A stretch of 64,000 bases of DNA from Aphanomyces cochlioides. Taxonomy: Eukaryota; Oomycota; Saprolegniomycetes; Saprolegniales; Verrucalvaceae. The notes under the pieces are model-generated. The model saw nothing but the letters and a program-made list of their open reading frames with translations, did not search any database and was not told the origin of the DNA. The position numbers and the translations under genes are program-made. Shown here one piece after another: positions 5,817-41,459 of the stretch (the stretch's first letter is position 1; every line of letters begins with the position of its first letter). The stretch lies in assembly GCA_019828595.1 (NCBI GenBank), contig JAHQRK010000008.1, forward strand, positions 2,232,001-2,296,000, given 5' to 3'.

Positions 5817-5889
5817 GCTCCTATGGCTCAGTTGGTAGAGCGTCAGTCTCATAATCTGAAGGTCGCCAGTTCGATCCTGGCTGGGAGCA
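5817..5889 (+). tRNA. tRNA-Met(CAT), elongator type, array unit 1
   Basis: 73 nt, no intron. It folds as a canonical cloverleaf: acceptor GCTCCTA/TGGGAGC, D-stem GCTC/GAGC, anticodon loop CTCATAA, T-arm GCCAG-TTCGATC-CTGGC, discriminator A. G1:C72 rather than A1:U72 argues for elongator, not initiator, Met. Box A (TGGCTCAGTTGG) and box B (GTTCGATCC) are intact. The gene lies immediately 5' of LINE copy A, head to head with it, and was rebuilt by the 14-bp target duplication. Confidence 0.96.
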
Positions 5890-5892
5890 GCC

Positions 5893-5908
5893 TTTTTCAT
5901 CCCTTTTT
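5893..5908 (+). terminator. RNA polymerase III terminators of tRNA-Met (two T5 runs)
   Basis: T5 at 5893-5897 and a second T5 at 5904-5908, 4 and 15 nt after the tRNA. The same pair follows tRNA units 1-5. In units 6 and 7 the first run is broken to CTTT and only the second run remains. Confidence 0.8.
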
Positions 5909-6869
5909 CTTGCCGCACTTGAACCGACATTCTCACAAAATCAAGCACACTACCATCGACACACAACAAGTATCACTCTGTCCCCTCGTCGTCAAAATAG
6001 CACCACCAGTCAACTAACACACACATTCCATTTACCACACAAGGCCAGACGCATCGAAATGTTGTACCAACACACTACTCAATATACCTGCACCGACATA
6101 TGCGCAAGTCTGTGAACGCGGCCAAAAACATCGCTCGTTCAGTCCTCCTGAGATCTCTTCTTTGCATGCACTCATGCCACTTTGTGTCGTGACAACAAGA
6201 ACACTACTAAACACCGCGGTCCCAATCACTGATCACATGTATTACCTCGTTAGACGCAGAGGCTTAATATTGAATCCCCACGTTGCTTGATAAACGAAAG
6301 GTTGACAATACGACAGGAAAAACTCACGAACGTCTCACTCTTAGCTCTCAAAAGCAGTTCAATAGTGCCAGTGATTTCGATAGTAGTGTCTACAGTCGAA
6401 ATGAACCAGGGATCGTAGAGTCTCCATATTGCGAATACTTTTACACAAATGAATGCCGCTGTGGCTACAGTGGTAAAGTGTCAATGGGTTTGTTTTGAAT
6501 GGAATGAGAAGTGTGTTTACGCAAGGACTCGATGTGTTTGTGCGCATCCTTCCAGCAAGCATACATCAAGAAAAGTGTAGCGTCGGTCACCGGGGTAAAC
6601 GCCATGCATTTGTATATGTTTCTAAGGTTCAAGAATACATGAGAAAGGATCCGTCGATGAGTTCCAGCATTTTTAGTCGTTGGTGGCATGTATGAAGTCT
6701 TGTAGACGTCAGTATCTCTATTTTTGAGGTGGTTTCAAGTGGAAGAAATGTTTGAATTTTTGGTAAGGCGAAAGATGGAGTGCGAGTAGTTTGAGACGAG
6801 AGTGGGGTATGAATAGGAAGGTGTTTGAATGGTGGATTTAGAATTTGAAGTGTCTAATCAAGGCATGCC

Positions 6870-6883
6870 GCTCCTATGGCTCA
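6870..6883 (+). other. 14-bp target-site duplication (tRNA-Met nt 1-14)
   Basis: gctcctatggctca, identical to tRNA nt 1-14, left at the 3' side of a LINE insertion. The same remnant occurs at 7313-7326, 7708-7721, 8163-8176, 11058-11071, 21403-21416, 29786-29799, 31638-31651 and 35336-35349. Each is followed directly by the 3' terminus of a LINE read on the minus strand. Confidence 0.95.
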
Positions 6884-7312
6884 ATGTCAATGGGGAGTCT
6901 ATTTGTAGTTAATGTAAACTACAAACTAATATTGCCCGAAGGCTCATCCCATTTCCAACTGCTAGGCTGAATTGGAAATCAATTTGGCTTTTCGTTTTCT
7001 TGATTCGCTGCGACGTTGGGACTTCGATTTCTTCGGTGTTTGTAAGCTAACACGGCGAATATGTCGGATAAAACTGACTCTTGGCATCTGACCCAGGGGG
7101 TATACATTTTCATTGTCTTGGATCATACATAGACTTCGGTCTATGCAGCGCTTGTATCGCTTGGCGAGGACCCAGCAATGGGATGTTGAATCAGTGACAG
7201 AAACAACCAAGAATTCTCCGTCAGGCTCATCCAATATCGCTCTACAGATATCACGAATTGGATCGCCCACCGATTGCTTGAGCAGTTGACGGGAGAATAT
7301 GGCGTCGTTGTC
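6884..7312 (-). mobile_element. 5'-truncated type D LINE stub 1 (oldest of a four-element stack)
   Basis: 429 bp, from the type D 3' terminus (tgtcaatgggg... with the 9-bp-stem hairpin) back into the C-terminal part of the type D ORF3 (stop at 6962). It shares a sequence variant (gctgcgacg) with the next stub, unlike the other D copies (cttcgacg), so these two came from a common source. It ends at the next target duplication (7313). Confidence 0.93.
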
Positions 7313-7326
7313 GCTCCTATGGCTCA

Positions 7327-7707
7327 ATGTCAATGGGGAGTCTATTTGTAGTTAATGTAAACTACAAACTAATATTGCCCGAAGGCTCATCCCATTTCCA
7401 ACTGCTAGGCTGAATTGGAAATCAATTTGGCTTTTCGTTTTCTTGATTCGCTGCGACGTTGGGACTTCGATTTCTTCGGTGTTTGTAAGCTAACACGGCG
7501 AATATGTCGGATAAAACTGACTCTTGGCATCTGACCCAGGGGGTATACATTTTCATTGTCTTGGATCATACATAGACTTCGGTCTATGCAGCGCTTGTAT
7601 CGCTTGGCGAGGACCCAGCAATGGGATGTTGAATCAGTGACAGAAACAACCAAGAATTCTCCGTCAGGCTCATCCAATATCGCTCTACAGATATCACGAA
7701 TTGGATC
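7327..7707 (-). mobile_element. 5'-truncated type D LINE stub 2
   Basis: 381 bp, same 3' end and same gctgcgacg variant as stub 1, truncated 48 bp sooner. ORF3 fragment stop at 7405. Flanked on both sides by the 14-bp tRNA fragment. Because insertion regenerates the intact tRNA on the right, this copy landed after stub 1. Confidence 0.93.
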
Positions 7708-7721
7708 GCTCCTATGGCTCA

Positions 7722-8162
7722 CTGCAATGGGGAGGTATATTAATAGACTTTCAATATCTACTAATACTAATATTGCCTACTAACGGCTCATCCCACTTCC
7801 AAATGCTTCAGCAGATTTTCTACTTTGGGCTTTGGAGTACAGCGATTTTTGACTTGTTGAATAAATACTTGGGGCTTGTTAATTTGGGGCTGAAGGTTGG
7901 AGCGCGAGCAAAGTCGGGTACTTGGCTACCAGTGGGCGATAGACAGGTTGTCTATGCAAAGTATTGATTGCTGAAATTGCTTCCACTCGTTGAGGGCTGT
8001 CAACTTCTTGGAGGCGAAGCCATCTGCGGATCGATGCATGCCATCGGATGAAGCTGACTTCTTGCCAAATTTCTGGCGGAGGCGGCTCCTTCGATTCGAA
8101 CTTGGCGGCGTTGTGCGTTGTCCAAATATAGTGAAGGTTGGAAGCACACAGAAGAGCCCAGC
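7722..8162 (-). mobile_element. 5'-truncated type A LINE stub
   Basis: 441 bp matching the 3' end of copies B and C: the last about 95 codons of ORF2 plus the 3' UTR with the type A terminal hairpin. It keeps the 15-bp segment that copy C lacks. Flanked by 14-bp tRNA duplications; third in the stack. Confidence 0.93.
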
Positions 8163-8176
8163 GCTCCTATGGCTCA

Positions 8177-8951
8177 ATGTCAATGGGGAGTCTATTTGTA
8201 GTTAATGTAAACTACAAACTAATATTGCCCGAAGGCTCATCCCATTTCCAACTGCTAGGCTGAATTGGTAATCAATTTGGCTTTTCGTTTTCTTGATTCG
8301 CTTCGACGTTGGGACTTCGATTTCTTCGGTGTTTGTAAGCTAACACGGCGAATATGTCGGATAAAACTGACTCTTGGCATCTGACCCAGGGGGTATACAT
8401 TTTCATTGTCTTGGATCATACATAGACTTCGGTCTATGCAGCGCTTGTATCGCTTGGCGAGGACCCAGCAATGGGATGTTGAATCAGTGACAGAAACAAC
8501 CAAGAATTCTCCGTCAGGCTCATCCAATATCGCTCTACAGATATCACGAATTGGATCACCCACCGATTGCTTGAGCAGTTGACGGGAGAATATGGCGTCG
8601 TTGTAGTGGAATCCATGTGTGTATGCCAGCTTGAGAAAATCATGCATCTTGGAAGGGGGAATGCCCGCGTCTTGAGGAACTCCATGGGCCTCTTTGAAAC
8701 CCGAAATGACTTCTTCGCTGAGCTCAAAATTGGAGACATTCAAATTGGTAGCAACGATTCGGATTGCAGCCGCAAGACAAGATTTGTCACTGTTGTTGCC
8801 AATTTCTAGCCACAGAGGATCCATCGCTCGAAATTCAGCAAGCGTTGGGGCGAGACCAGTGTTCGTGAGGAAGTGGGCTCCAGCTTGTCGCCATCGTTGG
8901 TACATCGCCACGGCTTCTTGACACCCGCTGAGGTCTTTTTCGTCGAACCAC
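8177..8951 (-). mobile_element. 5'-truncated type D LINE stub 3 (youngest of the stack), with ORF3 fragment 8255-8911
   Basis: 775 bp. It carries the C-terminal 218 codons of ORF3 (end of chromodomain plus the whole protease-like part; see 35428-36804) and the D 3' terminus. It directly abuts the intact tRNA at 8952, so it is the most recent insertion at this site. Confidence 0.93.
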
Positions 8952-9024
8952 GCTCCTATGGCTCAGTTGGTAGAGCGTCAGTCTCATAATCTGAAGGTCG
9001 CCAGTTCGATCCTGGCTGGGAGCA
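8952..9024 (+). tRNA. tRNA-Met(CAT), array unit 2
   Basis: Identical to the unit 1 tRNA, with box A and box B intact despite four successive LINE insertions immediately upstream. Confidence 0.96.
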
Positions 9025-10004: not shown

Positions 10005-10077
10005 GCTCCTATGGCTCAGTTGGTAGAGCGTCAGTCTCATAATCTGAAGGTCGCCAGTTCGATCCTGGCTGGGAGCA
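10005..10077 (+). tRNA. tRNA-Met(CAT), array unit 3
   Basis: Identical sequence. This copy directly follows unit 2 with no LINE upstream, so it is an unoccupied target and shows the pre-insertion state. Confidence 0.96.
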
Positions 10078-11057: not shown

Positions 11058-11081
11058 GCTCCTATGGCTCAGTGTACAATC

Positions 11082-11106
11082 GCGTATATTGAATTTAATT
11101 ATACGC
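11082..11106 (-). promoter_or_regulatory. 3'-terminal stem-loop of LINE E
   Basis: Perfect 7-bp stem (gcgtata/tatacgc) with an 11-nt loop, 10 nt inside the 3' junction. Two more small palindromes lie just upstream in element sense (around 11115-11150). Equivalent hairpins end types A and D. Confidence 0.7.
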
Positions 11107-11691
11107 TAAATAGTAATGACCGTCATTAATCACTCTTGAGTGAATAATATTGGTGCTTGTGAGATTTGAACTCAAGAAGTTTTACCTCTTGAAACTTGAT
11201 TTCTGTTGTATCAGTTGATACAGTGCAATGTTGACACTTGACACGTCGAATCTTGGACTTGGGTGAGGGTCATCATGTTTCGTGACAAGGTGACTGGTCT
11301 TGGGTGTTGTAGACATGGGACAGAAGTGTCTGTTCTTCGTCATCAGATGGCTGTGGAATAATCTTGGACGGGGCCATCATCTGGAGAACTCCCAAATGTT
11401 GGCTTGACTCATCTTGGACGGGACCAGTGCCATAGGAAATATCCACATGTTGGTTGGACTCATCTTGGACGGAGCAGATTTCTTGTCTCAATGGCGCGTC
11501 ATTGTCGGAACATGGGTGCGCTGTGTCCAAATGTTTCTTCGGCCACATCTTGTATCTTGATTTTTGTATAGGGCGTCTTGGAGTCCACTCGTTGGGTAGT
11601 GTGAAATTCTTGAGGATGAGATTGGAGAACTTCCTTGTGGATTTAATGGCTGCGGGTTCATTTTCCGATTTGCCTGCTGCCCAACACACCG

Positions 11692-12477
11692 TCAGGCTGC
11701 CTCTCCGTTGCCTCGCTTTGGTTGCTTGCCTCTCGTTTGCGTTCCTTCTCGTCCGTGGTTTGGCCTTGCTTGTCCGACGTTGTTCCCTCTGCCTTGAAGC
11801 TCGACCTGCCTCGTTGTGTTCCTGCTTTGCGCCACACTTGTTGCTGCGTCTCTCGTGTTCTCCTGTCTCGCTGTTCGATCGTCGTTGTTGCCGTCGCTGT
11901 CGTCTCTGCCGTGTGGCTGCTCGCTTGTCTCTGTCTTGGCCGTGTCGCTGTCTCTGTCGTGTCTGCCGTGTGGCTGCTCGCTTGTCTCTGTCTTGGCCGT
12001 GTCGCTGTCTCTGTCGTGTCTGCTGTGTGATTGCTCGCTTGTATCTGTTGTGGCCGTGTCGCTGTCTCTGTCGTCTCTGCCGTGTGGCTGCTCGCTTGTC
12101 TCTGTCTTGGCCGTGTCGCTGTCTCTGTCGTGTGATTGCTCGCTTATCTCTGTCTTGGCCGTGTCGCTGTCTGTCGTGTCTGCCGTGTGACTGCTCGCTT
12201 GTCTCTGTTGTGGCCGTGTCGCTGTCGCTGTCGTGTCTGCCGTGTGGCTGCTCGCTTGTCTCTGTTTTGGCCGTGTCGCTGTCGCTGTCATCTCTGCCGT
12301 GTGGCTGCTCGCTTGTCTCTGTTTTGGCCGTGTCGCTGTCGCTGTCGTCTCTGCCGTGTGGCTGCTCGCTTGTCTGCTGCTACGATGGGCGTTTCCAAGG
12401 AAGAATTTCAAGGCGTTGAAGACATCAAGGCGTTCAAGACTTGGTTTTTTGAAGCTATGGCTCCGAATGGCGACCAT
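11692..12477 (-). CDS. Repetitive ORF in LINE E 3' region (261 aa), function unknown
   Basis: Open minus-strand frame after the RT, largely made of the 57-bp minisatellite translated as 19-aa repeats (RDSDTAKTETSEQPHGRDD type). Midway an 11-bp-shortened repeat changes the phase to SSHTAETTATATRPKQRQA. The C-terminal 80 residues are Arg/Gln/Asn-rich. A second short frame (11689-11273) follows directly and has its own duplicated motif (VQDESNQH/VQDESSQH). No domain recognised. It may be non-coding repeat DNA; it sits where type D has ORF3, but I see no chromodomain or protease motif in it. Confidence 0.35.
   Translation of the reverse strand: MVAIRSHSFKKPSLERLDVFNALKFFLGNAHRSSRQASSHTAETTATATRPKQRQASSHTAEMTATATRPKQRQASSHTADTTATATRPQQRQASSHTADTTDSDTAKTEISEQSHDRDSDTAKTETSEQPHGRDDRDSDTATTDTSEQSHSRHDRDSDTAKTETSEQPHGRHDRDSDTAKTETSEQPHGRDDSDGNNDDRTARQENTRDAATSVAQSRNTTRQVELQGRGNNVGQARPNHGREGTQTRGKQPKRGNGEAA
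11908..12375. repeat. 57-bp minisatellite, about eight copies
   Basis: Copies start at 11908, 11965, 12022, 12079, (shortened copy near 12128), 12182, 12239, 12296 and 12353 (partial). Period 57 bp (19 codons), with few substitutions between copies. One copy is 11 bp short. Lies in the LINE E 3' region. Confidence 0.93.
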
Positions 12478-13411
12478 CCTGTGTACTTCGCTCGTCGGAG
12501 GAAGGGGTGGTAGAAGGAGTCTGAACTGCCAGCGATGGGGGCCTTCCTGGAGGGCTCTCTACGCATATGGACGTCTTCTCGCAATGACCCCGGTCTGAGG
12601 GTAGCGGTTGACTTGCTTCGACATTTTTTGGCCTCAATTCATGGAGCCGGACAGTTCTGCGGAAGTGTATGTTGGCTGACTCCCTTCATGCATGGATGCA
12701 GGGCTAAGAACCTGGTCAGTTCGTGTCCGTGGAAGTGGATTGAGTGCTTTGGGTTTGCCTCTTTGTGGGTTTGTCTCTTTATGGCTTTATGCCTTTCGGC
12801 CTTTGGCCTTGATTTTGGGTGTCCCTTTCTTTTTACTCCTTTGTTGGAGCCCCCGGGGGTAGCGGTCAAGTCAAGACTTCGTCGGAAAAGGAAAAGGAGG
12901 TTTGGCGACTTTGGCTTTGATGACTTGTTTGTGTAGGGTGGCGAGCGCGCGCGATATTTGCTTTTTGTGTTTGTTGGCGATCAAGTTTGGCGATTTTCGA
13001 CTTCAAGAAAGCGCGAAGAAACGTGGGGGTTAGCACACGAGCGCAGCTATGGGCGGCCTGTTCACCAACTTTCGGTAAGTTTCTTCTTTGTTTTTGTGGC
13101 TTGACTTTTGCTTAGTTTGCTTTTGGTTTGCGACGAAACCTTCTGAAAATCGCTAAGTCTTCAAGAAATTCTCGCCGATTTCACGCGAAGCGCTGCCCAA
13201 ATTCTTAATTTTGTAATTCAGCCTTGAATTACCAATTTTTCTTGTGTTTTTTGGTTTGATTTCAAGTTTGCCTTGGCTGCAAGTAAGTTGGTCAGCTAGA
13301 ATCACTTCTAACTTGAAAATTTAGTTTGAATTTGCATTGGATCGATCAAGTTCAAATCCACTCTTGAAATTTGGAGCGGCTTTATGTTGGCTGAAGAAGG
13401 CGAGTCGATTT
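12478..13411. other. LINE E 3' region without a recognised gene
   Basis: About 0.9 kb between the repetitive ORF and the RT stop. On the plus strand an ATG at 13050 opens a nine-codon frame (MGGLFTNFR) ending exactly at a GTAAGT donor-like site, which looks like a first exon of a host gene carried antisense. Nothing else coding is recognisable. Confidence 0.4.
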
Positions 13412-16400
13412 TTATGAAGTTGATCCTCCGCGTCCATGACTTGCAAACGCCTTGGTATGTCGTTTGAAATATTCCTTGTATTGAGTTTGTCGTTTTAGGA
13501 CAACAAGAATGCGGTTGACGGTTTGGAGCGTCTGCTCATCGTTATTTTGACGAAGCCATCGGCGAACGTTTGAACTCCAAAACGTGAACGCGATATCATT
13601 GAGAGCAGGTATGTATGGTGTTGGAGCATTGTCGAATTTGACTCGGTTGCGGTGTGTCCATAGGAGATGAAGGATGGTGCACATCAACATGAACCATAAC
13701 TGGTGCAACAAGTCCTTGTGCGAAGACCAACGCCTTGCGACTTGAAAGGAGTCAAGATTTTCAATCCAATCCCAACTGAAGCGTACTCCGAATGGACCCC
13801 AAGCTTCTCTGTGAGGTAACCAAACACTGCGGATCCGTCGGCAATCCATGAATAGATGCTGCTTAGTCTCGCGTTCGTAGCACTGGGGATAGCAGCATTG
13901 TACAGCATTGGGGTGAGCAGATTCCATGAATCGAAACTTGTCGCTAACGGGAAGAATGTCATAGATAGCACGAAACCAAACGTCCGCCTGAACTGGTGTA
14001 ACAATCTTGGACAATGGCTTGACGTATCTCGACAGGTAAACGCTGATCGTTTTCTTGTCTGGTCTCATTGATGTTTCTAGGGGATGCTTCTTCGTCATTG
14101 GCGGTGCATGGAAGGTTATCTGCTTCAGTATCTTGGCTGTCCAGGAACAGAAAGGTATGTCTTGTTCATTGTGTCGAAAGACAATGAAGCTTTGTTGTTC
14201 AGGACTACGTGGAACTGCACCTGCAACCGGCACGTCAGCCTGAGTCCAAACATCGGTTGCCATTGAGGTCAAGAGCTTGTAGAAGTGTTGGAAACTCGTT
14301 GGAATTGGTGAGTCATCGACAAAGTCGTCTTCGAGTGCGGTCATCATGGCTTTGAATTCGTCGTAGGTTGGCCATGTCCTTGTTGGAGTCAAGAAATCTT
14401 GCAAGCTTTGAAAGCCACTGCGGGCCAAGTGACGATACCAATCGCGATGATTTTTCAACTTGATCGCCAAGGAAGACGTCCCCTCTCGACCGGACACTTG
14501 GAACAGTGGGTGCGACGACAACCAAATCGGCATTTGGATCATCTGATGAATTGTAGGTTCATGTGGCGTTTTGGCAGTCATTGGAATTTTGGCCCAATGC
14601 TTCCAAATGTCTTGCCATAATGGCGACAGCAAATTGCGTTGGACAAGCTTGTTGTTGAGCGATGGATGGTATACCAAGAAATCCCACCGATCATTACGAG
14701 AATATGGGCTCATACATCGGCGCAATCGATCTGAAGGTAAAATTGCCCACGATTGCGATGTATCATGCTCCTCTTTGACTAGAAGCTGGAGCCGTATGAG
14801 TCGTTGTTTGCGAATAGTTGAGGCTATGTGAGGCACTTTCAAGCCAATTTTTGGGTCGTGCACAAGGCCACCAGCAGCAAGAGCCAGATATTTTTCTGTC
14901 GTTTGAGTCCTGCGACTGAGAACAAATTTGTTCACCATGGATTGCCACTGCTGAATGGTACTGTCTTGAATTGGTAAAACCATGGTGTAATGCCACAACT
15001 GTGATAGGAGCATGGTGTTTACGAGTAATCTTCGACCTTTGATCGTTCTCGCTCGACACGCCCAAGTGGTGAAGGATTTGTAGAACTTGTCGGTGATGGT
15101 TTTGATTTGTAGGTTTGGATCCAAGTTATGACCTAGGTGGATGCCCAGATACTTGACTGGAAATCCACTGGGAACCATATTCAATCTCGGGTGGTGGACA
15201 ACGGGCTGTTTGCTGTCGAGAGTGAGTACTTTGCTTTTGCTCCTGTTTAACTTGGCACCAGAGTGACGACAAAACTTGTCGACAAGTTGCAATTGCGCTT
15301 CAAGGTCTACCAGAGATCCAGAAACAAGGGTTGTGTCGTCTGCGAACAAGAGGACCGAAGCGATCCCTCCTTCTGCGTTGGAAAAGGCGAAGCCGCGCTC
15401 CGGGTGGTTGCGCAACAATTGTGCAAGTGGCTCGATCGTCATCACAAACAACATTGAAGACAAAGGGTCGCCTTGCTTGACTCCCCGCGTTGGATGGAAC
15501 GGCTGTGTAAGTTCTCCATTGATGTTCAAACTTACTTTGGTGTCTTTGTAGAGGAGTTTGATCCAGTTAATAAAGTTGTCTCCCACATTAAACTTTTGGA
15601 GTACTTGATACATGAAGTTGTGGTTCACGCGGTCATAAGCTTTCTCGAAATCCAAGAACATGGCGTAAGCTTCTTCACTGAATATTGTGCAATAATGCTG
15701 AAGATCTTGAAGGAAAATGACGTGATCATGAATACGTCTGCCTTTGACGAATCCATTTTGCTCTGGTTGGATGATACTTGGCAATACATGCGATAGCCTG
15801 TAGGCCAAAGCTCTCGACAAGACCTTCACCTCCACTGGAATCAATGCAATGGGACGATAGTTGGCGGGATTCCGACGGTTGCCGCCCTTGAAGAGCAATG
15901 AGATTGCTGACCATCGCTGGAAGTCAAGTAAGCTTCCCTTGCGACTTCGATCTTGAAACACAATTCGTAGAATTTCGCCGAAGAGAAGTGAGTCCACTTG
16001 GTAAAAACAAGCTGGGAATCCATCGATGCCAGGCGACTTGTGTGGATTCATTGTTCTTATGGATTGAGCGAGTTCCGCCGCTGTCACTGGTATATCTAGC
16101 GAAGCGGACTCGTCCTCCGACAGTTCGCGTTCCAGGACTTCAAGGAAGGAGTTGAGCTCTTCAGTGTTTTGTGTTTGACACGACGTCATCGTCAGTCATG
16201 ACTGCAGACCAATGGTTATTGAATGCTTGGTGGATTTCTTCAGGTATGTCTGTGATGTTCCCTTCACTGTCATAACATTCCACGATAGGAACTGCGTAAC
16301 GACTTGATTGGGGCTTTCGAAAGAAGTGAGATGTAGCCGTTTCGTTGTGCGTGGCATGGAAGTCAAAGCTGAGGTCGGCGCGACGTTGTTTTATCTCTTG

Positions 16401-17600
16401 TTTACGTTCTTCATAGTTGGCTTTTGCGACCTCGAGCGCGTCATCGTTGATCCGTCGTTGTCGATGTTTCAATTGAGCTTGAAGCCACTGAATTTGAGCC
16501 GCTTGAAGTTCATTGCGCTGGTCGGTTATCAATCGAGCATGATACTTCTGCAGGAACTTCTTCGTCCGATGTTTCCAACGGGACCACAGTGATCCTGGCT
16601 CCTGAGATGCTCTCAACTCATTGAGGAGTGCATCCGCTTCATTTTTGATGGCTTCTCTTACTTCTGAGATGGTCATCAATTCTTTTGGTAATTTCCAATA
16701 GCTCTTCTGGCGCTTAATTTGGATAGGTTGAAGCTCCACGAAGTGCCAAAGGTGGTCGGTGTCTGCTGTGGGTTCGAAGTATTCCGTTGTACGAACCCAG
16801 CTAGATAAGATTGGATCCAGCAGAATGTAATCCAGCCGATTGAGTCTTTGAGGTGACGAATAAACCCTTCGTGTAGGATTGTAGCTGCGCCAAGCGTCCA
16901 CGACATTGAGCTCTTGGATCCAAGCAAAGCAAGATTGTCGGTGAGTGTGATGATTTGAAACTTCTGACCCCCTGGAATCAAGGTCTCTGTCCATTGGAAG
17001 GTTGAAGTCACCCAAGACGACATGCCTAGAGTTGAGCGGAAAATTTCGCGGCAAGGAATTGAAGAACGCGTCACGTTCATTGTCTTGCACTGGCGCGTAT
17101 ATATTGTGGTAATAAATCGGATCATCACCCCACATAGAGCTAACCACCATGTAGCGATCCTCGATGTCGTATATTGGGTTTCGTGGTGAAGATGTTCGAA
17201 ACCCGGCACTGTGGCTTGGAAGACCATCGCAACACCACCTGAGCGGTATTGCTCCACTTGGTCGGAATTTTGTCGATGGTCGTTTGAAGCAAGGAAGTAC
17301 TGGTCTTTGCCAAGAGCATGCGTCAAGTGGAATTGGAACTTGTCGAATTGCACGATACCAGCAAATTTGGTCTCTTGTAAGCCGACAATGTTGTACCTCG
17401 AGATCATGGAATTTACAAGTAAGTTTCCACTATCTCTCGATACACCATTGATATTGGCTGTGGCGATAGATAACTTGGATAGCGAAGAGTTTGGAAAGGA
17501 TGGTTGCGTTGAGTTTGTTGGTGGATTGTTTGGGTGTGTTTGTGGTTGACCTTGCACAACAGCCGCGAGGACTTTAGTACAAGAGGATGTGTCGGCGCTG
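13412..17600 (-). pseudogene. LINE E ORF2 (APE endonuclease-RT), two frame breaks
   Basis: Endonuclease starts in the frame seen at 17557-17180 (TANINGV, QETK), shifts near 17175 into 17150-16161 (GDFNLPMD, RLDYILLD, DTDHLWH), then shifts again near 16185 into the intact 925-codon RT frame 16189-13412. The RT shows KSPGIDG, DFEKAYD, RGVKQGDPLS, LFADDTTLVS and a C-terminal Cys/His cluster (CCYPQC...HLFMDC) as in L1-like LINEs. ORF2 lacks an ATG before the nuclease; its frame is open through the ORF1 stop at +1, so translation by frameshift, reinitiation or a non-AUG start would be needed. The second frame break overlaps by only 29 nt and could be an indel or an assembly error. Confidence 0.82.
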
Positions 17601-29785: not shown

Positions 29786-29799
29786 GCTCCTATGGCTCA

Positions 29800-31637: not shown

Positions 31638-31651
31638 GCTCCTATGGCTCA

Positions 31652-34600
31652 CTGCAATGGGGAGGTATATTAATAGACTTTCAATATCTACTAATACTAA
31701 TATTGCCTACTAACGGCTCATCCCACTTCCAAATGCTTCAGCAGATTTTCTACTTTGGGCTTTGGAGTACAGCGATTTTTGACTTGTTGAATAAATACTT
31801 GGGGCTGAAGGTTGGAGCGCGAGCAAAGTCGGGTACTTGGCTACCAGTGGGCGATAGACAGGTTGTCTATGCAAAGTATTGATTGCTGAAATTGCTTCCA
31901 CTCGTTGAGGGCTGTCAACTTCTTGGAGGCGAAGCCATCTGCGGATCGATGCATGCCATCGGATGAAGCTGACTTCTTGCCAAATTTCTGGCGGAGGCGG
32001 CTCCTTCGATTCGAACTTGGCGGCGTTGTGCGTTGTCCAAATATAGTGAAGGTTGGAAGCACACAGAAGAGCCCAGAGCACAAACAGTATGTCTTGAAGC
32101 TGGCTACCGCGTTCGTTGACTTGAAAGCGGTCGATGTTGGTGATGGCAGTCCAATCGAAATTGACACCGAAGCATCGCCAAGCGGTCGCGTGAAAACGCC
32201 AAAGGGGATACACGCGAGAGCAGGTGTGGAAGGCGTGGTGTTGGTTCTCCGGTGCGTCGCAATTGGTATAGACACAGCAAATTACGTCTGGCTGCTGAGG
32301 TTGCAAGTAGAACAAGCGCGAGTTGACAGGCAGCATGTTGAACAACAGTCGAAACCAAACGTCGCCATGGAGGGGAGGCGGCCAACGGCATGTTTTGCGG
32401 ATGAGTCGCACGTAGGTCGCAATATCTTGTTGCTCGACGCGGGACGATGTCGCCACTGGGTGCGGTTTTCCATCCGAAGGGGCGTGATGCGCCAAACGTG
32501 ATACGAGTCGCTTGGGCCAACGCTCGAAGGATAGCAATTGATCTTTGAAAAGTGCCTTGAAAGGGTGACTTGTTGTATCGATATCGGTCAAAGCAGTTCC
32601 AGTTCGAACGCCAGACGTGCGGAGGACTTGGTCGAATATCTTGGTGAGGTGGCTATAAACTTGACCAGCACGTTCGGGTGCTGCAAATCCCATCGTGCCG
32701 TTCGCTTGTAACGTCACTTGTGCCGCACGGTTGTTGGATGACAGTCGATCAATAAACGCAGCTCTTGTAGGCCATGTCCCTTGCCGTGTCAAGAAGTCTT
32801 TGAGGCAGTGGAAACCGTTTTGAGACGCATGTCTACACCATCGACGACACAGAGCAGTCTTCACGACATTTGATGTAGCACCCGCAGGACCAACTTGCAG
32901 AGCGGGGTAGGATGTCAGCCACACGGGGAGGTTCAAAAGTTCTTCGAGGCTTGGTGGCGAAGCGGTTCGCTTGGCCATAGGTGTGGCGGCCCATTGATGC
33001 CAAATGTCGTGCCAAAGAGGATGCAGCTCCCACAAAAACAACCACTTGGAGCTGTGGTTGGGGAAGTACGTGAGAAAGTCGAACGGGTGGGTGTCGCGAT
33101 ACAGCTTGTTCATGACACGGGAAAATTGTCTCTTGACAAGCAACTTCCATGGGGCAAATGTGTTGGGTGAATTGGGCTGCATCAAGAGTTGGAGCCGCAG
33201 CAGTCGCTGAGTCCGAAGCTTCGAAGCCACATGCGGAATACCGAGGCCGAGTTTTTGATCGAACTGCCACTTGCGGCAAATAGTTGAGCGATGATGGTCG
33301 GTGATTTGCGTCTTCCGACCAAGGATGTACTTGTTGACCATTCTTTGCCAAACGGCAACCATCGTTGGAGGCACATACACTGCAGCCGTGACATGCCATA
33401 ACAACGACAACAACATGGTCGATACGATGAGTTTGCGGCCTTGGATGGTTCGCGCACGACTTCCCCACGTTTGAAACGCAGCCAGAAACTTGTCGTTCAG
33501 TTGCTGGACTTGAAAATCGCGCGGCAGTCGGTGGCCAAAGAGAATACCAAGGTATTTCACTGGCTTCTCGCTCGGCAAGACGTTCAAGAGGCCACCATCG
33601 TCGATGTCTTCGATATCGAGATTGTTGTTGAGCGCCAAAGTCATGCACTTGGCAACGTTGAGACGAGCTCCAGACACAGAGCAAAAGTCTTCGACAATTG
33701 CCATTTGCTCGACCGCCGCTTGGAGGGATGACGAGAGTAGAGTCGTGTCGTCGGCAAAGTAGATGCTCGTCAGTGAGTCTCCATTTGGAAGGGGAATACC
33801 AAAATCAGGAGATCCGCGTAGCATTTCGCCGAGTGGCTCGAGGTAAAGTACGAAGAGCATGCACGATAGGGGGCAACCTTGCTTGACTCCGCGGGTAGGC
33901 CGTATGGTAGGGCCAAGACCGTCGTTGAAAATGATCTGGACCAGAGGCGTATTGTAAAGCAACTGAACCCAAGACACAAATGTGGGACCGATGTTCATCT
34001 CCTTGAGTACGTCGAAGAGAAAGCCTTGGTCAACCATATCGTATGCCTTGGAAAAGTCGAGAAACGTCGCGTAGTAGTCGTGGTCTTCATTGGTACAGAA
34101 AGTCTGCAATGCTTGTACCAGCATCACGTGGTCGTGCAAGCGACGGCCAGGGACAAAACCAGCTTGGCTTGGGTGAGCGAGGTATGGGGCAACTTGTGCA
34201 AGACGGTAGGCCAGCGCCCGCGATAGAATCTTGACTTCAACCGACATGAGAGTAATCGGCCGATAGTTGCCAGGGTCGCCTCTGTCTCCAGCCTTGAACA
34301 AGAGCGCCACTGCACTTCGGCGTTGTTGGAGCAGGAGGTGACCGTGATGGGTGAGTTGGTAGTTGAACACCTTGAGCAGGATTTGGGCGAATACGTCCGG
34401 GGAGACTTGAAAGAAAGCTGCAGGCCAGCCGTCTGAACCAGGAGACTTGTTCGGGTTCATAGACTTGAGCGCGCCGCACAGGTCTTCCGCCGTGAGAGGA
34501 CTTTCCAGAGCGTCGCGCTGTTCTTGAGTGAGACGTCGAGTAATGGCTCGAATGATAGCTCGGCGACGGGCCCGATTCAACGGTGGTTGGTCTCTTGGAG

Positions 34601-35335
34601 TGACCATGATGTTTTTCCAATGAGACGTAAAACCAGCCTTGACTTCAGACGGGTCAGTCGACGTTACACCGTTGATTGTCACGGACGAGAGCGGCACTTT
34701 GATCCCCTTGGGTCGACGAAAAAAGTGACTGGTACCTCGCTCGTTGACGTTGGCGTGAAAGTCGAATTGCTGATCCAGGTTGAACTGTCGGTACTCGCTG
34801 CGGGCAGTGTCAAGGGCTTGACGGGCGGTATTAACAATGGATGTCTCAATGAGTCCCATGTCGAATGCTCGGCGGGAAGTAAGCCACTTCATCTTGAGGC
34901 TGTTGAGTGTGTACTTCATCGAGTCAATGTACTGGCGATGACTGACTTGGAGACGCTTCTTCATTCTCTTCAACCAGCCGTACCACTTTGCGCCAAAGTT
35001 TTGAGTGTCGTCTGCGCGCATCTCGTCCAAAAGTTGATTGGCTTCGGCCTTGATCGCTGCGACTACTTGAGGGTTCTTTAAGAGCTCACGGGGGAGGCGC
35101 CAGTAACTTCGGTCGGGAGCTCGCTGCTCGCAGGAGAGGACCACTTTGTGTTCCATGTGGTCGCCTGCAAAGCTGCTTGGGGAATAGCTTGAACGTGCGT
35201 ACGTTTGAGCGACGATATCTTGGTCCACAAACAGGTAGTCGAGGCGGTTGCTTCGACCAGGGCCGCTGTAAACGCGCTCGTTGGGGTGGTGCATCCTCCA
35301 CGCATCGATAACACCAAGTGCTGAAAGCCAGGCAC
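31652..35335 (-). mobile_element. LINE copy C (type A), 5'-truncated, 3,684 bp
   Basis: Starts at the type A 3' terminus and stops within the endonuclease part of ORF2. Flanked by tRNA remnants at 31638 and 35336. It is the older of two stacked insertions, since copy D lies between it and the tRNA. Confidence 0.94.
31710..35335 (-). pseudogene. LINE copy C ORF2 fragment (partial endonuclease and complete RT, no frameshift)
   Basis: Open through about 1,200 codons, lacking only the N-terminal half of the endonuclease by 5' truncation. It holds all RT motifs and, unlike copy B, no 2-bp deletion, so it shows the undamaged type A reading frame. A 15-bp deletion near 31806 removes the normal stop and extends the protein by about 30 residues to 31710. 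Confidence 0.9.
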
Positions 35336-35367
35336 GCTCCTATGGCTCAATGTCAATGGGGAGTCTA

Positions 35368-35391
35368 TTTGTAGTTAATGTAAACTACAAA
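35368..35391 (-). promoter_or_regulatory. 3'-terminal stem-loop of type D LINE
   Basis: Perfect 9-bp stem tttgtagtt/aactacaaa with a 6-nt loop, 18 nt inside the junction, between the conserved caatgggg and actaatattgcc blocks. The stem sequence differs wholly from type A while the pairing is kept. Confidence 0.75.
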
Positions 35392-35427
35392 CTAATATTG
35401 CCCGAAGGCTCATCCCATTTCCAACTG

Positions 35428-36804
35428 CTAGGCTGAATTGGAAATCAATTTGGCTTTTCGTTTTCTTGATTCGCTTCGACGTTGGGACTTCGATTTCTTC
35501 GGTGTTTGTAAGCTAACACGGCGAATATGTCGGATAAAACTGACTCTTGGCATCTGACCCAGGGGGTATACATTTTCATTGTCTTGGATCATACATAGAC
35601 TTCGGTCTATGCAGCGCTTGTATCGCTTGGCGAGGACCCAGCAATGGGATGTTGAATCAGTGACAGAAACAACCAAGAATTCTCCGTCAGGCTCATCCAA
35701 TATCGCTCTACAGATATCACGAATTGGATCACCCACCGATTGCTTGAGCAGTTGACGGGAGAATATGGCGTCGTTGTAGTGGAATCCATGTGTGTATGCC
35801 AGCTTGAGAAAATCATGCATCTTGGAAGGGGGAATGCCCGCGTCTTGAGGAACTCCATGGGCCTCTTTGAAACCCGAAATGACTTCTTCGCTGAGCTCAA
35901 AATTGGAGACATTCAAATTGGTAGCAACGATTCGGATTGCAGCCGCAAGACAAGATTTGTCACTGTTGTTGCCAATTTCTAGCCACAGAGGATCCATCGC
36001 TCGAAATTCAGCAAGCGTTGGGGCGAGACCAGTGTTCGTGAGGAAGTGGGCTCCAGCTTGTCGCCATCGTTGGTACATCGCCACGGCTTCTTGACACCCG
36101 CTGAGGTCTTTTTCGTCGAACCAGTCTTTGTCGAGTCCATCCGGGCGTTGAAACTTCCAGTTGACTTGGTATTGAATAGTTGAAATTCGATTTCGCATTG
36201 ATGCCACTTCGCGGTGGTCATCGATAAACAACACTTCATCGATGTCATCATCGTCGGTTGGAATTCGCAGAGTGCGTGGGCGGTTGGTTGGGGCATCAGC
36301 CGTTGTCGCATTCGTTTGTGGCCTGGCTGGAACAGAAACATCGTCCAATAGATCCATGAGGGATGGTAGCGGAGATCCATTGTCATTGCCCAAGGGGTCA
36401 AATTCGCGGGTGCTCGAGTTCAAAATGGACATATCAGGAGTAAATTGGTGTTCTTCAGTTGTAACTGGACTTGAAGGACGAGTGTCGGATGATTGCGTCA
36501 TAGGTACAGAAATCTCAACTCCATCCACTCCCTCAAGAGTAATCCCTGGAGACATCGAGCTCCCCACACCTCGTGTAGTTATGGGTCTCGACGTCTGCGC
36601 GGGGAGTACGCTATCGGCAGTGAAAATCGTTGAAGCTTCCATTGTTGTTGTCTTGGGTAAAATCAAAAGTGAGTCTTGGAGAATTGTTTTGAGATTCTCA
36701 CTGAACTTATTCTCAGTTGCGACACTTGAGTCAGGCACGATTTGATTGGGCAGTGAAATGTTTTGCGCGGATCGTGAGTGATGGTCGCCAGGATTCCCAA
36801 TCAA
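35428..36804 (-). CDS. LINE D ORF3: predicted chromodomain plus papain-like cysteine protease (458 aa)
   Basis: Complete ORF, ATG 36804 to stop 35428, 51 nt after the RT stop. The first about 180 residues are Ser/Thr/Pro-rich. Residues about 187-250 match the chromodomain pattern: EVLFIDDHR, then IQYQVNWKF, then DWFDEKDLSGCQEAV (compare YLVKW...TWEP..NL). A second domain has a Cys near residue 285 (DKSCLAAAI), a His near 387 (TSHCWVLAK) and an Asp/Asn pair near 408 (MIQDNENVYPL), the Cys-His-Asp/Asn order of papain-fold proteases (C39/OTU-like). The tail PKKSKSQRRSESRKRKAK is a likely nuclear localisation signal. What is seen is the ORF and motifs; the domain names are my reading. Four stubs keep its C-terminal part. 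A role in chromatin targeting or RNP processing is speculation. Confidence 0.65.
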   Translation of the reverse strand: MIGNPGDHHSRSAQNISLPNQIVPDSSVATENKFSENLKTILQDSLLILPKTTTMEASTIFTADSVLPAQTSRPITTRGVGSSMSPGITLEGVDGVEISVPMTQSSDTRPSSPVTTEEHQFTPDMSILNSSTREFDPLGNDNGSPLPSLMDLLDDVSVPARPQTNATTADAPTNRPRTLRIPTDDDDIDEVLFIDDHREVASMRNRISTIQYQVNWKFQRPDGLDKDWFDEKDLSGCQEAVAMYQRWRQAGAHFLTNTGLAPTLAEFRAMDPLWLEIGNNSDKSCLAAAIRIVATNLNVSNFELSEEVISGFKEAHGVPQDAGIPPSKMHDFLKLAYTHGFHYNDAIFSRQLLKQSVGDPIRDICRAILDEPDGEFLVVSVTDSTSHCWVLAKRYKRCIDRSLCMIQDNENVYPLGQMPRVSFIRHIRRVSLQTPKKSKSQRRSESRKRKAKLISNSA

Positions 36805-36855
36805 AAATTCAGCTGGGATACCAAGTCAAGAATACAGCTGGGGCTTGTAATCAAA

Positions 36856-39800
36856 TTACTGGTGTTCAACTCGAAAAGACATGGGATATTTTTCGAATAG
36901 CTCGTTGTATCCAGCTTGAGAGAAAAGGACTGAGATCGCTTCGATGATGTTTCGATAGTCGAAGTCGTCAGGCGAGAGCAAACGAATTGTTCGCCTGATG
37001 GAAGCTGTCCAACTGACAAATATAATCTCGTTCCATAGTAAAATCGGTAGAGGCCTTTTGCCATCGAACTTGGTTGCATTTCTTTGAGTCCATAAGGAGT
37101 ACGTGATGGAAGCACAAAGGAGGGACCATAATTTGAATAATGCGTCATGCAGGTGTTTTCCTCGCGTATTGGTCTTGAAGCGACTGATATTCGTGGTGGT
37201 TGCCCAATCAAACTTAACACCATAAGCTCTCCATGCTCGCTCTTGGAACATCCAAACTTGATGTACATGATGACATGTATGGAAGGCATGATGAAAAGTC
37301 TCAACATCCGAGCAATCTTCATAGACACAACAAATAGCGTCAGGGTTTTGGATCTGCATATAGGAAAACCTCGAGTTGACGGGTAACATCTTCATGTGCA
37401 ATCGAAACCATACATCGCCTTGAACAGGTGGAGGTAGATTACACACAGTACGAATGAGACGGATATACTTTGCTATGTCTTTGTCAGTTCTTGTCGTAGT
37501 CTTCATAGGATGTATAGCTTCAGTCTGGGGGGCGTGGTAAGCTAAATGCACCACGTTTTTCTTGGGCCACGACTCGAAAGGTAAATCAGCATCCTTGATT
37601 CTGGCTGTAAACGGATGTTGACAAGTCGGGACATTAGGCAGTGGCGACCCTTGCCGAATGTCAAACGATCGAACAACAACTTTGTCGAAGATTCGTGTGA
37701 GTTGATTGTAAATGTCGGTTGTGCGGGGCAATGTGGCAAAGTCCATGACTCCGTCCTGGTTTAGACAAACTTGGGCAGCTGGATTGTTCGACGACATTCG
37801 GTTCACGAACATGGTCTCTGTTGGCCAAGCGCCATGTGGGGTCAGGAAATCCTTCAGGCATCTGAGACCATTTTTGGCCCCGTGGCGGCACCAGAGACGC
37901 ATGTCTTCATCTTTCACGACATTTGCTAACATCTTAGCAGAGCCGAAGTGCATTGCGTCGTAGGCTGTGAGCCATACCGGGAGGTTCAGTACCGTGTCGA
38001 GATTTGGAGGCACGCCGATTCGCTTACTCATGTCTGTGGCTGACCAATGTTTCCAAGTATCAAGCCACAGTGGATGGAGCTCGCGAAGCAAAAGCCACTT
38101 GGAGCTTGCATTTGGGTAGTATGAAAGAAAATCGAATGGGTGACTGTCTCGGAATAACTGATGTATTGTGCGGCTAAATTGTCGCTGTACAAGTTTCTTC
38201 CACACCAGGATTTCACCAGGAGAATCGGCAGACATAAAGAGCTGTAAACGAAGAAGGCGTTGTGTTCGCAGCCTCGATGCAATGTGGGGGATTCCCAAGC
38301 CTAAAGGCTTGTCGTACTGCCACCTTCTATGGATTGAGGGACGGTAACTCTCATCGAGCTGGGTCTTGCGGCAAAGTATGAACTTGTTTAACATTTGTTG
38401 CCACGTAACGACCATAGCAGGAGGCACAGGTACAACGGCTGTTACATGCCACAACATAGATAGCAACATCGTGGAGGCAATAAGCTTTCGGCCCTGCAAT
38501 GTCCTTGCTCGTTTACCCCATAGTTGAAAGGACGAGATGAATTTGTCGTTGAGTTTTTGAAGTTGGGAGTCAGCCGAAAGTCGATGGCCAAAGAGAATAC
38601 CAAGATATTTCGTACACTGACCAGTTGGTACGATATTGAGCAAACCATCTGCTTCGATGTCTTCTTGATCGAGATGGTCGTTGAGAACCAAGGTCATGCA
38701 CTTGGAACGATTCAGACGGGCCCCTGAAGCCGTGCAAAACTCTTCCACAATTGCCATTTGCTCCACAGCAGATTGCAGCGAGTTTGATAACAACGTCGAG
38801 TCGTCGGCAAAGAATATACTCGTAATAACTGAGTCGTGGGGAGAGCGATTCCAAGATGTGGGGACGCTCGGAGCATCTCACCAAGAGGTTCTAGGTATAG
38901 GACGAACAGTAGGCATGATAAAGGACAGCCTTGTTTGACGCCTCGGGTAGGTCGGATCTTAGGGCCAAGCTCGCCATTGAAGATGATCTGGACCAAAGGT
39001 GAGTCGTACAAAAGAGCTACCCACGCAATGAAACCATCACCAGTGTTGACTTCTCTCAGCACATCAAGCATGAATTCTCGATCCACCATGTCGTACGCTT
39101 TCGAAAAGTCAAGGAATGTTGCATAGTAGTCGTGATCTTCGTTGGTGCAAAACGTTTGCAAAGTTTGCACAAGCAGGACGTGGTCATGCAGCCGTCGTCC
39201 TGGGACAAAGCCAGCTTGACTTGGGTGAATGAGATGAGGAGCTACTGTAGCCAGGCGATAAGCGAGGGCACGGGATAGTATCTTCACCTCCACTGACATG
39301 AGTGCAATAGGTCGGTAGTTTCCAGGATCGCCTCGATCACCAGCTTTGAAGAGCAGAGCCACAGCACTACGCCTTTGTTGAAGGAGTAGTTTACCGTGGT
39401 GGTGAAGTTGGTAGTTGAAGACCCTGACCAGGATTTCGGAGAAAGCCTCGGGTGCTACTTGGAAGAAGGCCGCTGGCCATCCATCAGGACCAGGAGACTT
39501 GTTTGGACTCATTGTCTTGAGAGCACTACACAGCTCGGCTGCTGTGATAGGTCTGTCTAGCTCCTCGCGTTGCTCATCATTGAGTTTGCGGGAGATAAAC
39601 CGTATGACAGCCCTCCGCCTCGCCCGGTTTAGCCGAGGTTGTTCGCCACGAGTGGTAGTCATTATTACCTTCCAATGGGCAGTGAATCTCTCTTTGATAG
39701 TGGTAGGATCAGACACGGGAATGCCATCGACGTTGACCGTCGTGATAGGAACCTTGAGTCCTTGTGGCCTTCGAAAGAAGTGGCTCGTACCGCGTTCGTT

Positions 39801-40359
39801 GATATTTGCATGAAAATCGAATTGCTGATCCATGCGGTATTGGCGATATTCGATTCTTGCGTTTTCCAGCGCCAACCGAGTAGCATCAACGGCAGCCTCG
39901 TCGAGCAAGCCAGCTTCGTATGATCGTTGTGCAGATATATGTCTCAGTTTTAGGCTTTTGAGCTCGTGTTGCATGGATTGGAGGTGGTGGCGATGACATT
40001 GTTGTAAACGTCGTTTGATTCGCTTAAGCCACCCATACCAGACGGCTCCCATGTTTGTCGATTCGTCCGCACGCATCTCAGAGAGGAGGTGTGATGCCTC
40101 TTCTCGTATGGCTTTGATGACGAGCGGGTCTTTGAGTAGCTCTCTCGGCAGCCTCCAGTAGCCACGGGTCGTGGGTGTATGACTTGTAGAGAGAACGACA
40201 GTGTGCTCCAAGTGATCTCCGGCAAAGCTGTTAGTGGCATATTTTGAGCTTTGGTAGGATTGGGCAACTAAATCTTGGTCAATGAACCAGTAGTCCAGAC
40301 GATTGCTTCGTCCTGGACCGCTTGCCAGTCTTTCGTGAGGGTGGTGTAGGCGCCACGCC
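36856..40359 (-). pseudogene. LINE copy D ORF2 (endonuclease C-terminal part and RT), one frameshift
   Basis: Begins within the nuclease (RSNRLDYWF, then GDHLEHTVV) at the truncation point. The RT has KSPGPDG, NYRPIALMS, DFSKAYD and RGVKQGCPLS. The frame breaks by one base near 38842, just before the FADD motif, and resumes to the stop at 36856. The C-terminal Cys/His cluster reads CCVYEDC...HHAFHTC. Close homolog of type A ORF2. Confidence 0.88.
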
Positions 40360-40432
40360 GCTCCTATGGCTCAGTTGGTAGAGCGTCAGTCTCATAATCT
40401 GAAGGTCGCCAGTTCGATCCTGGCTGGGAGCA
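40360..40432 (+). tRNA. tRNA-Met(CAT), array unit 7
   Basis: Identical tRNA; first T run mutated as in unit 6. Abuts the truncated 5' end of LINE copy D. Confidence 0.96.
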
Positions 40433-41412
40433 GCCTCTTTCATCCCTTTTTCTTGCCGCACTTGAACCGACATTCTCACAAAATCAAGCACACTACCATC
40501 GACACACAACAAGTATCACTCTGTCCCCTCGTCGTCAAAATAGCACCACCAGTCAACTAACACACACATTCCATTTGCCACACAAGGCCAGACGCATCGA
40601 AATGTTGTACCAACACACTACTCAATATACCTGCACCGACATATGCGCAAGTCTGTGAACGCGGCCAAAAACATCGCTCGTTCAGTCCTCCTGAGATCTC
40701 TTCTTTGCATGCACTCATGCCACTTTGTGTCGTGACAACAAGAACACTACTAAACACCGCGGTCCCAATCACTGATCACATGTATTACCTCGTTAGACGC
40801 AGAGGCTTAATATTGAATCCCCACGTTGCTTGATAAACGAAAGGTTGACAATACGACAGGAAAAACTCACGAACGTCTCACTCTTAGCTCTCAAAAGCAG
40901 TTCAATAGTGCCAGTGATTTCGATAGTAGTGTCTACAGTCGAAATGAACCAGGGATCGTAGAGTCTCCATATTGCGAATACTTTTACACAAATGAATGCC
41001 GCTGTGGCTACAGTGGTAAAGTGTCAATGGGTTTGTTTTGAATGGAATGAGAAGTGTGTTTACGCAAGGACTCGATGTGTTTGTGCGCATCCTTCCAGCA
41101 AGCATACATCAAGAAAAGTGTAGCGTCGGTCACCGGGGTAAACGCCATGCATTTGTATATGTTTCTAAGGTTCAAGAATACATGAGAAAGGATCCGTCGA
41201 TGAGTTCCAGCATTTTTAGTCGTTGGTGGCATGTATGAAGTCTTGTAGACGTCAGTATCTCTATTTTTGAGGTGGTTTCAAGTGGAAGAAATGTTTGAAT
41301 TTTTGGTAAGGCGAAAGATGGAGTGCGAGTAGTTTGAGACGAGAGTGGGGTATGAATAGGAAGGTGTTTGAATGGTGGATTTAGAATTTGAAGTGTCCAA
41401 TCAAGGTATGCC
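40360..41412 (+). repeat. 1,053-bp tRNA-Met array unit 7 (last complete unit)
   Basis: Same variants as unit 6. Followed with no insertion by the broken tRNA at 41413. Confidence 0.95.
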
Positions 41413-41459
41413 GCTCCTATGGCTCAGTTGGTAGAGTGTCAGTCTCATAATCTGAAGGT
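41413..41459 (+). pseudogene. Truncated tRNA-Met at the array edge
   Basis: First 47 nt of the tRNA with one change in the D-stem (gagcg to gagtg); the T-arm and 3' acceptor are missing and unrelated sequence follows. Box B is lost, so it should be inactive. It marks the right boundary of the array. Confidence 0.9.

Follow-up and report, generated by a model that had tools for sequence, protein, structure and literature searches.

Copies of a tRNA-Met gene in the oomycete Aphanomyces cochlioides are interrupted within box A, each time at the same base, by long interspersed nuclear elements (LINEs) of three families, named A, D and E here. The window, meaning the whole 64,000-nucleotide stretch of DNA that was analysed (G000:C78:2232001-2296000), holds seven full copies of a 1053-bp tandem unit in which the tRNA-Met gene is carried, 99.6-100% identical to the query unit. 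A further 43 units at at least 99% identity were counted in 200 kb of the same contig (C78:1860001-2060000). Genome searches cover the 76.2-Mb assembly of 94 contigs. Tandem tRNA arrays have been reported in P. infestans (PMC9584435).

Nucleotides 1-14 of the tRNA-Met gene read GCTCCTATGGCTCA. The window contains 17 exact copies of this 14-mer, all on the + strand, against 0.02 expected, and none of 100 shuffles reaches 17. Seven of the copies are intact tRNA-Met starts, nine are LINE 3′ junctions and one is a fragment at the array edge (41413). Scanning the window for the end words of the elements gave eight A/D ends and one E end (five A, three D and one E), all nine on the + strand and each directly after the 14-mer, and no LINE 3′ end beyond these nine. 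The 5′ end of every one of the nine LINEs abuts an intact tRNA-Met gene or the next 14-mer. The elements run antisense to the tRNA: the open reading frames (ORFs) with reverse transcriptase or endonuclease matches lie on the - strand, and truncated copies retain the left (3′) end and miss the right (5′) end. The features, in window positions, are as follows.

5817..5889, +: intact tRNA-Met (CAT), rebuilt; to its left is the 5′ end of an A/D-type LINE that lies partly outside the window
5817..6869, +: 1053-bp tandem unit with tRNA-Met; further full units start at 8952, 10005, 20350, 28733, 30585 and 40360
6870..6883, +: 14-nt tRNA remnant (gene start to A14)
6884..7312, -: LINE type A, 5′-truncated, 429 bp
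7313..7326, +: 14-nt tRNA remnant
7327..7707, -: LINE type A, 5′-truncated, 381 bp
7708..7721, +: 14-nt tRNA remnant
7722..8162, -: LINE type D, 5′-truncated, 441 bp
8163..8176, +: 14-nt tRNA remnant
8177..8951, -: LINE type A, 5′-truncated, 775 bp
8952..9024, +: intact tRNA-Met, reached after four nested insertions in a row
10005..10077, +: intact tRNA-Met with native upstream flank
11058..11071, +: 14-nt tRNA remnant
11072..20349, -: LINE type E, 9278 bp; the GT next to the 14-mer is element sequence
13412..16189, -: type E reverse transcriptase ORF (RVT_1, E=1.5e-37)
16161..17150, -: type E endonuclease ORF (Exo_endo_phos, E=4e-5, 23.9 bits against a cut-off of 24.5)
17574..20267, -: type E ORF1, 897 aa
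20350..20422, +: intact tRNA-Met, rebuilt at the E 5′ end
21403..21416, +: 14-nt tRNA remnant
21417..28732, -: LINE type D, near full length, 7316 bp
21574..24150, -: type D reverse transcriptase ORF; this copy has a broken ORF2
24017..25726, -: type D ORF for an apurinic/apyrimidinic endonuclease (APE); best solved relatives are LINE-1 ORF2 proteins
26104..28728, -: type D ORF1, 874 aa, without a Pfam match up to E 1
28733..28805, +: intact tRNA-Met, rebuilt at the D 5′ end
29786..29799, +: 14-nt tRNA remnant
29800..30584, -: LINE type A, 5′-truncated, 785 bp
30585..30657, +: intact tRNA-Met
31638..31651, +: 14-nt tRNA remnant
31652..35335, -: LINE type D, 5′-truncated, 3684 bp
35336..35349, +: 14-nt tRNA remnant
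35350..40359, -: LINE type A, 5′-truncated, 5010 bp
40360..40432, +: intact tRNA-Met
41413..41459, +: 47-nt start of a further unit, array edge

Insertion point and tRNA targets across the genome

The 3′ junction is fixed in the genome as it is in the window. The 14-mer GCTCCTATGGCTCA occurs 136 times, all on the + strand, and every one of the 100 matches listed lies on C78. The 200 kb of C78 contain 31 LINE ends, 28 after the exact 14-mer and three after a one-base variant, GCTCCTATTGCTCA. When element 3′ ends were searched at up to one mismatch, 433 A/D and 83 E ends were found (reversed-pattern controls, 4 and 0). A search for the E end joined to box A, at up to three mismatches, recovered 79 of the 83 (reversed control, 0), with box A reading TAGCTCA in 62, TGGCTCA in 8, TAGCTTA in 4, TAGCGCA in 2, TAGATCA in 2 and TAGGTCA in 1. 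Another E end (L104), with a repeated element end, sits on a tRNA-Lys start, which brings the ends located between A14 and G15 to 80 of 83. The corresponding searches for A and D, also at up to three mismatches, gave 203 and 222 junctions at A14|G15, 425 together (reversed control, 0), and those among the matches listed (100 A, 100 D) are all without mismatch; the 425 junctions and the 433 A/D ends are not strictly nested sets.

The first-pass annotation, made from the letters of the window, had placed nine LINE ends directly after the 14-mer, with the other end of each element at an intact tRNA-Met or the next 14-mer, and had put the insertion between A14 and G15 in box A. All of this is borne out by the window scan and the genome searches. 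It had also set the tabulation of flanks throughout the genome as a test, and its refuting outcome, copies with random flanks across the genome, was not found in the end and junction searches.

Its view of tRNA-Met as the target has to be given up. A specificity for Met alone is ruled out by the 433 A/D and 83 E 3′ ends, which lie on many contigs. Flanks were read at 40 loci, giving 42 junctions (21 A/D and 21 E) out of the 516 ends. Among these are 19 distinct 14-mers, 17 of them tRNA-like and two not (L055, L061); 15 end in TRGCTCA, one in TAGCTTA and one in TAGCGCA. The targets recognized in the genome include Met, Lys (two), Phe, Asn, Ile, Thr (two), Cys and Trp genes, an intron-containing Tyr-like gene, Ala-like genes and tRNA-like repeats. 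At the 40 loci A is found, besides Met, at eight distinct tRNA-like starts, D at six and E at more. The target class is thus tRNA genes with a TRGCTCA-like box A. ARAGORN called no tRNA gene in the 3′ flanks of the 40 loci, an expected outcome, as most such flanks keep just the first 14 nt of the tRNA.

Several sequences around these targets deserve description. A repeated tRNA-like sequence, TAGCTCACT ... GGTTCGATACC, is present on C3, C4, C8 and C45 and also serves as an E target (L087, L089, L090, L102); none of the four tRNA-like repeats at these loci matches an Rfam family. Ala-like starts at L098 and L099 (C24), L091 (C12), L094 (C22) and L100 (C34) leave the tRNA soon after the anticodon stem, and L098 and L099 diverge from each other after GCATGCGGG; this looks like a second insertion site of another element. 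In the window, a lone tRNA-Lys(TTT) gene (57082-57154, - strand) carries no insertion, and its first 14 nt, TCCCGTTTAGCTCA, are the target used on C1 and C12. The sequence TRGCTCAGTYGGKAGAGC was found 526 times in the genome, and therefore uninterrupted targets remain.

Rebuilt tRNA genes and target duplications

At the 5′ end of the elements the tRNA gene is usually restored. Among the 100 matches listed, out of 108 full-length A/D 5′ ends with GCTCAGT 5-18 nt on, the element meets a 14-nt tRNA start directly in 65, after one extra base in 22 and after two to six in 13. In 18 of the 22 the single extra base agrees with the -1 base read at native copies of the tRNA concerned (for the three Phe copies on C34 the native base was taken from C15). 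For instance, A precedes tRNA-Asn, and G precedes the Lys(TTT) gene on C12, where L032 and L070 appear to be the two ends of one element. Of 17 A/D 5′ ends fetched, 11 gave an ARAGORN tRNA call, the kinds being Lys(TTT), Lys(CTT), Phe, Asn, Ile and Thr(AGT). The other six are two nested E insertions and four Tyr-like genes with an intron; of the latter, Rfam recognizes L082 as a tRNA and does not recognize L071. Of 18 E 5′ ends fetched, 7 gave a tRNA call: one each for Thr(CGT), Phe and Cys, two for Trp and two for Ala. Excluding the Ala calls, which are 86 nt long and doubtful, ten kinds of tRNA, Met included, have a called rebuilt gene. Runs of extra G are frequent at E 5′ junctions (L091, L096, L097, L098, L099, L102).

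The position of the second break can be read from the Met array. Taking the 200 kb and the window together, 18 distinct truncated insertions were compared, leaving aside the (near-)full-length copies, two copies that repeat a truncation already counted and one composite stretch. Eight have an extra C, the native -1 base, and hence a 15-bp duplication; eight have no extra base, two of which end in C and are ambiguous; two have another base. Among the near-full-length or full-length copies, an extra base is seen in D 7321 (c) and D 7316 (a). Provided that L063 and L095 are the two ends of the E copy in tRNA-Cys, its duplication is a clean 14 bp. Two E copies outside tRNA genes, L055 and L061, show duplications of 16 and 15 bp respectively, with the break after CA in both. 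These off-target duplications rule out GT beside E as target sequence; it is part of the element. From the duplications at the Met, Cys and off-target E sites, the second break is 14-16 bp from the first, and mostly 14-15 bp at tRNA sites. The tRNA measures 7+2+4+1 nt from its mature 5′ end to A14, and because of this geometry the break matches the mature 5′ end, although not always exactly. The earlier proposal of a 14-bp duplication that rebuilds the gene therefore stands, and its second part, a second break always at the exact mature 5′ end, fails for the eight of 18 insertions with an extra C.

Nested insertions record the same copying. The variant 14-mer GCTCCTATTGCTCA is common to three consecutive nested junctions (C78:1978693, 1979972 and 1988119), and the rebuilt gene at the end of the chain (C78:1996232) carries it as well, as expected if every insertion copies its own target. 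The 19-kb stretch C78:1978134-1997298 is composed of A and D elements inserted one into another's target within a variant tRNA-Met.

The elements and how they may insert

The A reference copy is 8132 bp long, D is 7326 bp and E 9278 bp. ORFs of all three match the RVT_1 profile, and Exo_endo_phos is matched in E, just under the cut-off. The Pfam endonuclease match is weak for D alone (0.02); against solved structures, the D endonuclease ORF matches the LINE-1 ORF2 protein at 2.9e-17. The D reverse transcriptase, the only one of the three so compared, scores 164 bits with the LINE-1 ORF2 protein and 91 bits with the best R2. The words NLNG, QET, YAP, GDFN, RLDY, GDH and FADD follow one another in D ORF2, and we take them to be APE and reverse transcriptase motifs. 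The APE-like endonuclease thus lies N-terminal to the reverse transcriptase in ORF2, the arrangement of APE-type LINEs of the L1 group, and by Pfam the C-terminal part contains no restriction-like endonuclease. A Tc5 DNA-binding domain in D ORF2 (Pfam E 0.12) was below threshold and was dropped. ORF2 of A and D is 63% identical over 1262 aa, and that of E is 37-39% identical to both. Among seven full-length D copies examined, four have an open 1384-aa ORF2, and two of the D copies (C78:1934953 and 1943341) have an open 999-aa ORF1 beside an open ORF2. The 69-bp 5′ terminus of the A and D references is 85.5% identical, the best of eight matching pieces (the others are 71-84%), as if the terminus beside the rebuilt tRNA were under selection.

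A protein search for relatives gave 120 matches at E up to 1e-20 among 8000 candidates scored, with up to 92% identity at best. Named relatives are 50-68% identical in A. astaci, Achlya and Thraustotheca and 32-39% in Globisporangium, Plasmopara, Peronospora and Phytophthora. A search for DNA of relatives in viral contigs gave no match. To judge from domains and junctions, A, D and E are very probably three lineages of one group of L1-type APE-endonuclease LINEs using the box A of tRNA genes.

The constant 3′ end, variable 5′ truncation and target duplication are those of target-primed reverse transcription. In such a scheme the endonuclease of the element would read TRGCTCA|GT as DNA and nick the tRNA-sense strand after A14. 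Primed by the ...GGCTCA 3′ end released in this way, reverse transcription would begin at the fixed 3′ terminus of the LINE RNA; a short stem-loop predicted close to that terminus may take part in insertion. The last 100 nt of A fold better than shuffles (z -3.2, 0 of 200 as good), and those of E less distinctly (z -2.1, 3 of 200). The other strand would be cut 14 or 15 bp upstream, around tRNA base +1 or -1. The gene start would thereby be duplicated: the 14 nt left at the LINE 3′ end would be dead, and a complete tRNA gene would stand at the 5′ end, with its transcription directed away from the LINE. The rebuilt gene would be open to new hits, giving nested chains such as 6870-8952. The strand and order of the nicks are inferred from the orientation of the elements under target-primed reverse transcription; a first nick on the tRNA coding strand, as had been proposed, is supported in this way. 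Since the number of complete tRNA genes need not fall, hundreds of copies would be tolerable, and the insertions may be harmless to the host.

Several observations weigh against this account. Three of the 83 E copies are off target (L055, L061, L105), and 225 of the 425 A/D junctions are known by pattern match only, their letters being unread. About eight of the 433 A/D ends have no counterpart in the junction searches, where the reversed control of the end search is itself 4. Unit duplication inflates the counts, and the truncation lengths 214 and 684 each occur twice. The 108 A/D 5′ ends come from a search for those with GCTCAGT 5-18 nt on and give a count, not a fraction. At 11 of the 18 E 5′ ends ARAGORN calls no tRNA; Ala-like starts, tRNA-like sequences or nested D are found there. 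The 3′ fold of D is weak (z -1.7, 13 of 200 shuffles as good). At two tRNA-Trp sites (L096, L097, C23), E is joined via a run of G and the rebuilt acceptor stem, judged by pairing with its 3′ half, looks altered; rebuilding is therefore not always faithful.

Alternatively, the RNA polymerase III (Pol III) factors TFIIIC or TFIIIB could bring the elements to tRNA genes, a route that has been proposed for Dictyostelium TRE5-A, with the endonuclease adding just a short local preference like CA|. Nearly all copies with flanks read sit in tRNA genes or tRNA-like sequences, and the three off-target E sites have little in common beyond CA|; the endonuclease alone may be loose, and a host-factor part is conceivable. 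ORF1 of the Dictyostelium element TRE5 has been reported to bind TFIIIB (PMC5911963). However, targeting directed by such factors should also reach other box A sequences. A box A of the TAGTGTAG type is present at 220 tRNA-like sites in the genome, 99 of the 100 matches listed forming an array at C15:1075417-1335937, and one of the TGGCCGAG type at 64 (reversed control, 1). Neither type contains any E end, out of 83, or any of the A/D junctions read, out of 21, a result that speaks for recognition of the DNA itself and against Pol III factors. One A and one E copy are found within the C15 array, and they use a GGCTCA tRNA-like sequence instead (L040, L059, L093). The break is also fixed to one base, in contrast with the 40-54 bp zone of TRE5 (PMC5911963). 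Guidance by Pol III factors is accordingly held to be unlikely, and recognition of the site by the endonuclease itself is the reading we prefer from these sequence comparisons.

The C15 array has features of its own. Its TAGTGTAG sites are about 1.18 kb apart, with several gaps of about 10.4 kb that correspond to inserts of about 9.2 kb, possibly another site-specific element. The tRNA of the array is Val-like, from GAC in the loop of L059, and at L059 it is broken after the anticodon stem and joined to the tRNA-like sequence.

A very small chance is given to unequal crossing-over, by which one or a few old insertions would have been copied with the tRNA array and no repeated targeting would be involved. 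The tandem units are indeed at least 99% identical, and some truncation points and full-length spacings recur. Nevertheless, the parts of one array that were examined show 18 distinct truncation points and three element families, targets with unrelated acceptor stems lie on many contigs, and the Lys(TTT) gene on C12 and the site with the same 14-mer on C1 are each the sole tRNA-word match of their contig; distinct truncations and tRNA types contradict array duplication as a full account. That the 14-mer is instead a tRNA-like end carried by the element, as in tRNA-derived short interspersed nuclear elements, is practically discounted: it flanks every window copy, yet the same families bear different 14-mers matching the local tRNA gene, the variant 14-mer is passed on within its own chain, and the sequence duplicated beside off-target copies is a different one, so that the 14-mer is target, as the first-pass annotation had it.

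With recognition of DNA by the element retained, we lean towards a joint interpretation in which the Pol III box A is the recognition site, tRNA genes with TRGCTCA are interchangeable homes, the stagger of the cuts rebuilds the gene and the habit is old. Its age is suggested because it is common to three lineages despite E ORF2 being just 37-39% identical to A/D. The habit may run through related oomycete elements, and the rebuilt tRNA, back to back with the LINE 5′ end, may serve the element as a boundary or promoter. A site-specific LINE can, in this interpretation, target a promoter element common to many essential genes, as long as the gene is rebuilt on insertion. Three questions become testable: by what route LINEs acquire and retain a specific target, what lets tRNA arrays bear parasites, and whether about 7 bp of DNA can be read by an APE endonuclease on its own. 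RNA-driven insertion tools now rest mainly on R2 in ribosomal DNA, and an enzyme with a landing site in a gene that is rebuilt would be a different starting point.

Comparison with known targeted elements

tRNA genes as a class of LINE targets, and target-primed insertion, are already known. An APE-type LINE in the box A of many tRNA genes was not found among the open PMC titles and beginnings of abstracts listed, a range outside which Repbase Reports and most subscription papers lie. Within that range, the use of many tRNA genes, the single base in box A and the rebuilding of the gene were not found in print. The first-pass annotation had regarded the case as non-standard; insertion in box A, the rebuilt tRNA and the oomycete host are supported, whereas LINEs of a single tRNA gene and DNA transposons in box A are already in print. 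Insertion at A14|G15 lies inside the gene, unlike that of TRE elements, which is at a distance from it.

Keno, Mutsu and Dewa are assigned to the Tx1 clade. They are named with the targets U2, 5S and a tRNA-Leu spacer, respectively, in PMC3706591, and targeted LINEs of the Tx1 clade carry an APE endonuclease according to PMC4640811. They resemble A, D and E in having fixed targets in or beside small RNA genes and, if Tx1, in being APE-type. The targets differ; Dewa is in a spacer and A, D and E are in the gene.

tRNA genes are among the LINE targets named in PMC5035012, and NeSL-1_TV (tRNA-Pro), LIN15_SM (tRNA-Arg) and LIN25_SM (tRNA-Glu), LINEs related to NeSL, are described in PMC4640811. 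These are likewise non-long-terminal-repeat retrotransposons with a tRNA gene as a specific target; they are of a lineage with a restriction-like endonuclease and are reported to use one tRNA gene per family, whereas A, D and E have an L1-type APE and many tRNA genes. Utopia (PMC4640811) shares with A, D and E target specificity in oomycetes and differs in its restriction-like endonuclease, its U2 small nuclear RNA target and the RNase H of its oomycete families.

The Dada DNA transposons of Perkinsus marinus (Dada-tIA, -tIB and -tY) have a proposed target site duplication, TAGCTC, in box A (PMC3706591), and hence the same box A letters as target. They differ in their DDE transposase, the 6-bp duplication and the use by each family of its own tRNA gene; the word 'regenerat' is absent from the text of PMC3706591. 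Dictyostelium TRE5 and TRE3 are, like A, D and E, APE-type LINEs with tRNA genes as safe sites (PMC5911963). The TRE elements use a zone 40-54 bp upstream or 40-150 bp downstream of the gene (PMC5911963), whereas A, D and E use one base inside it.

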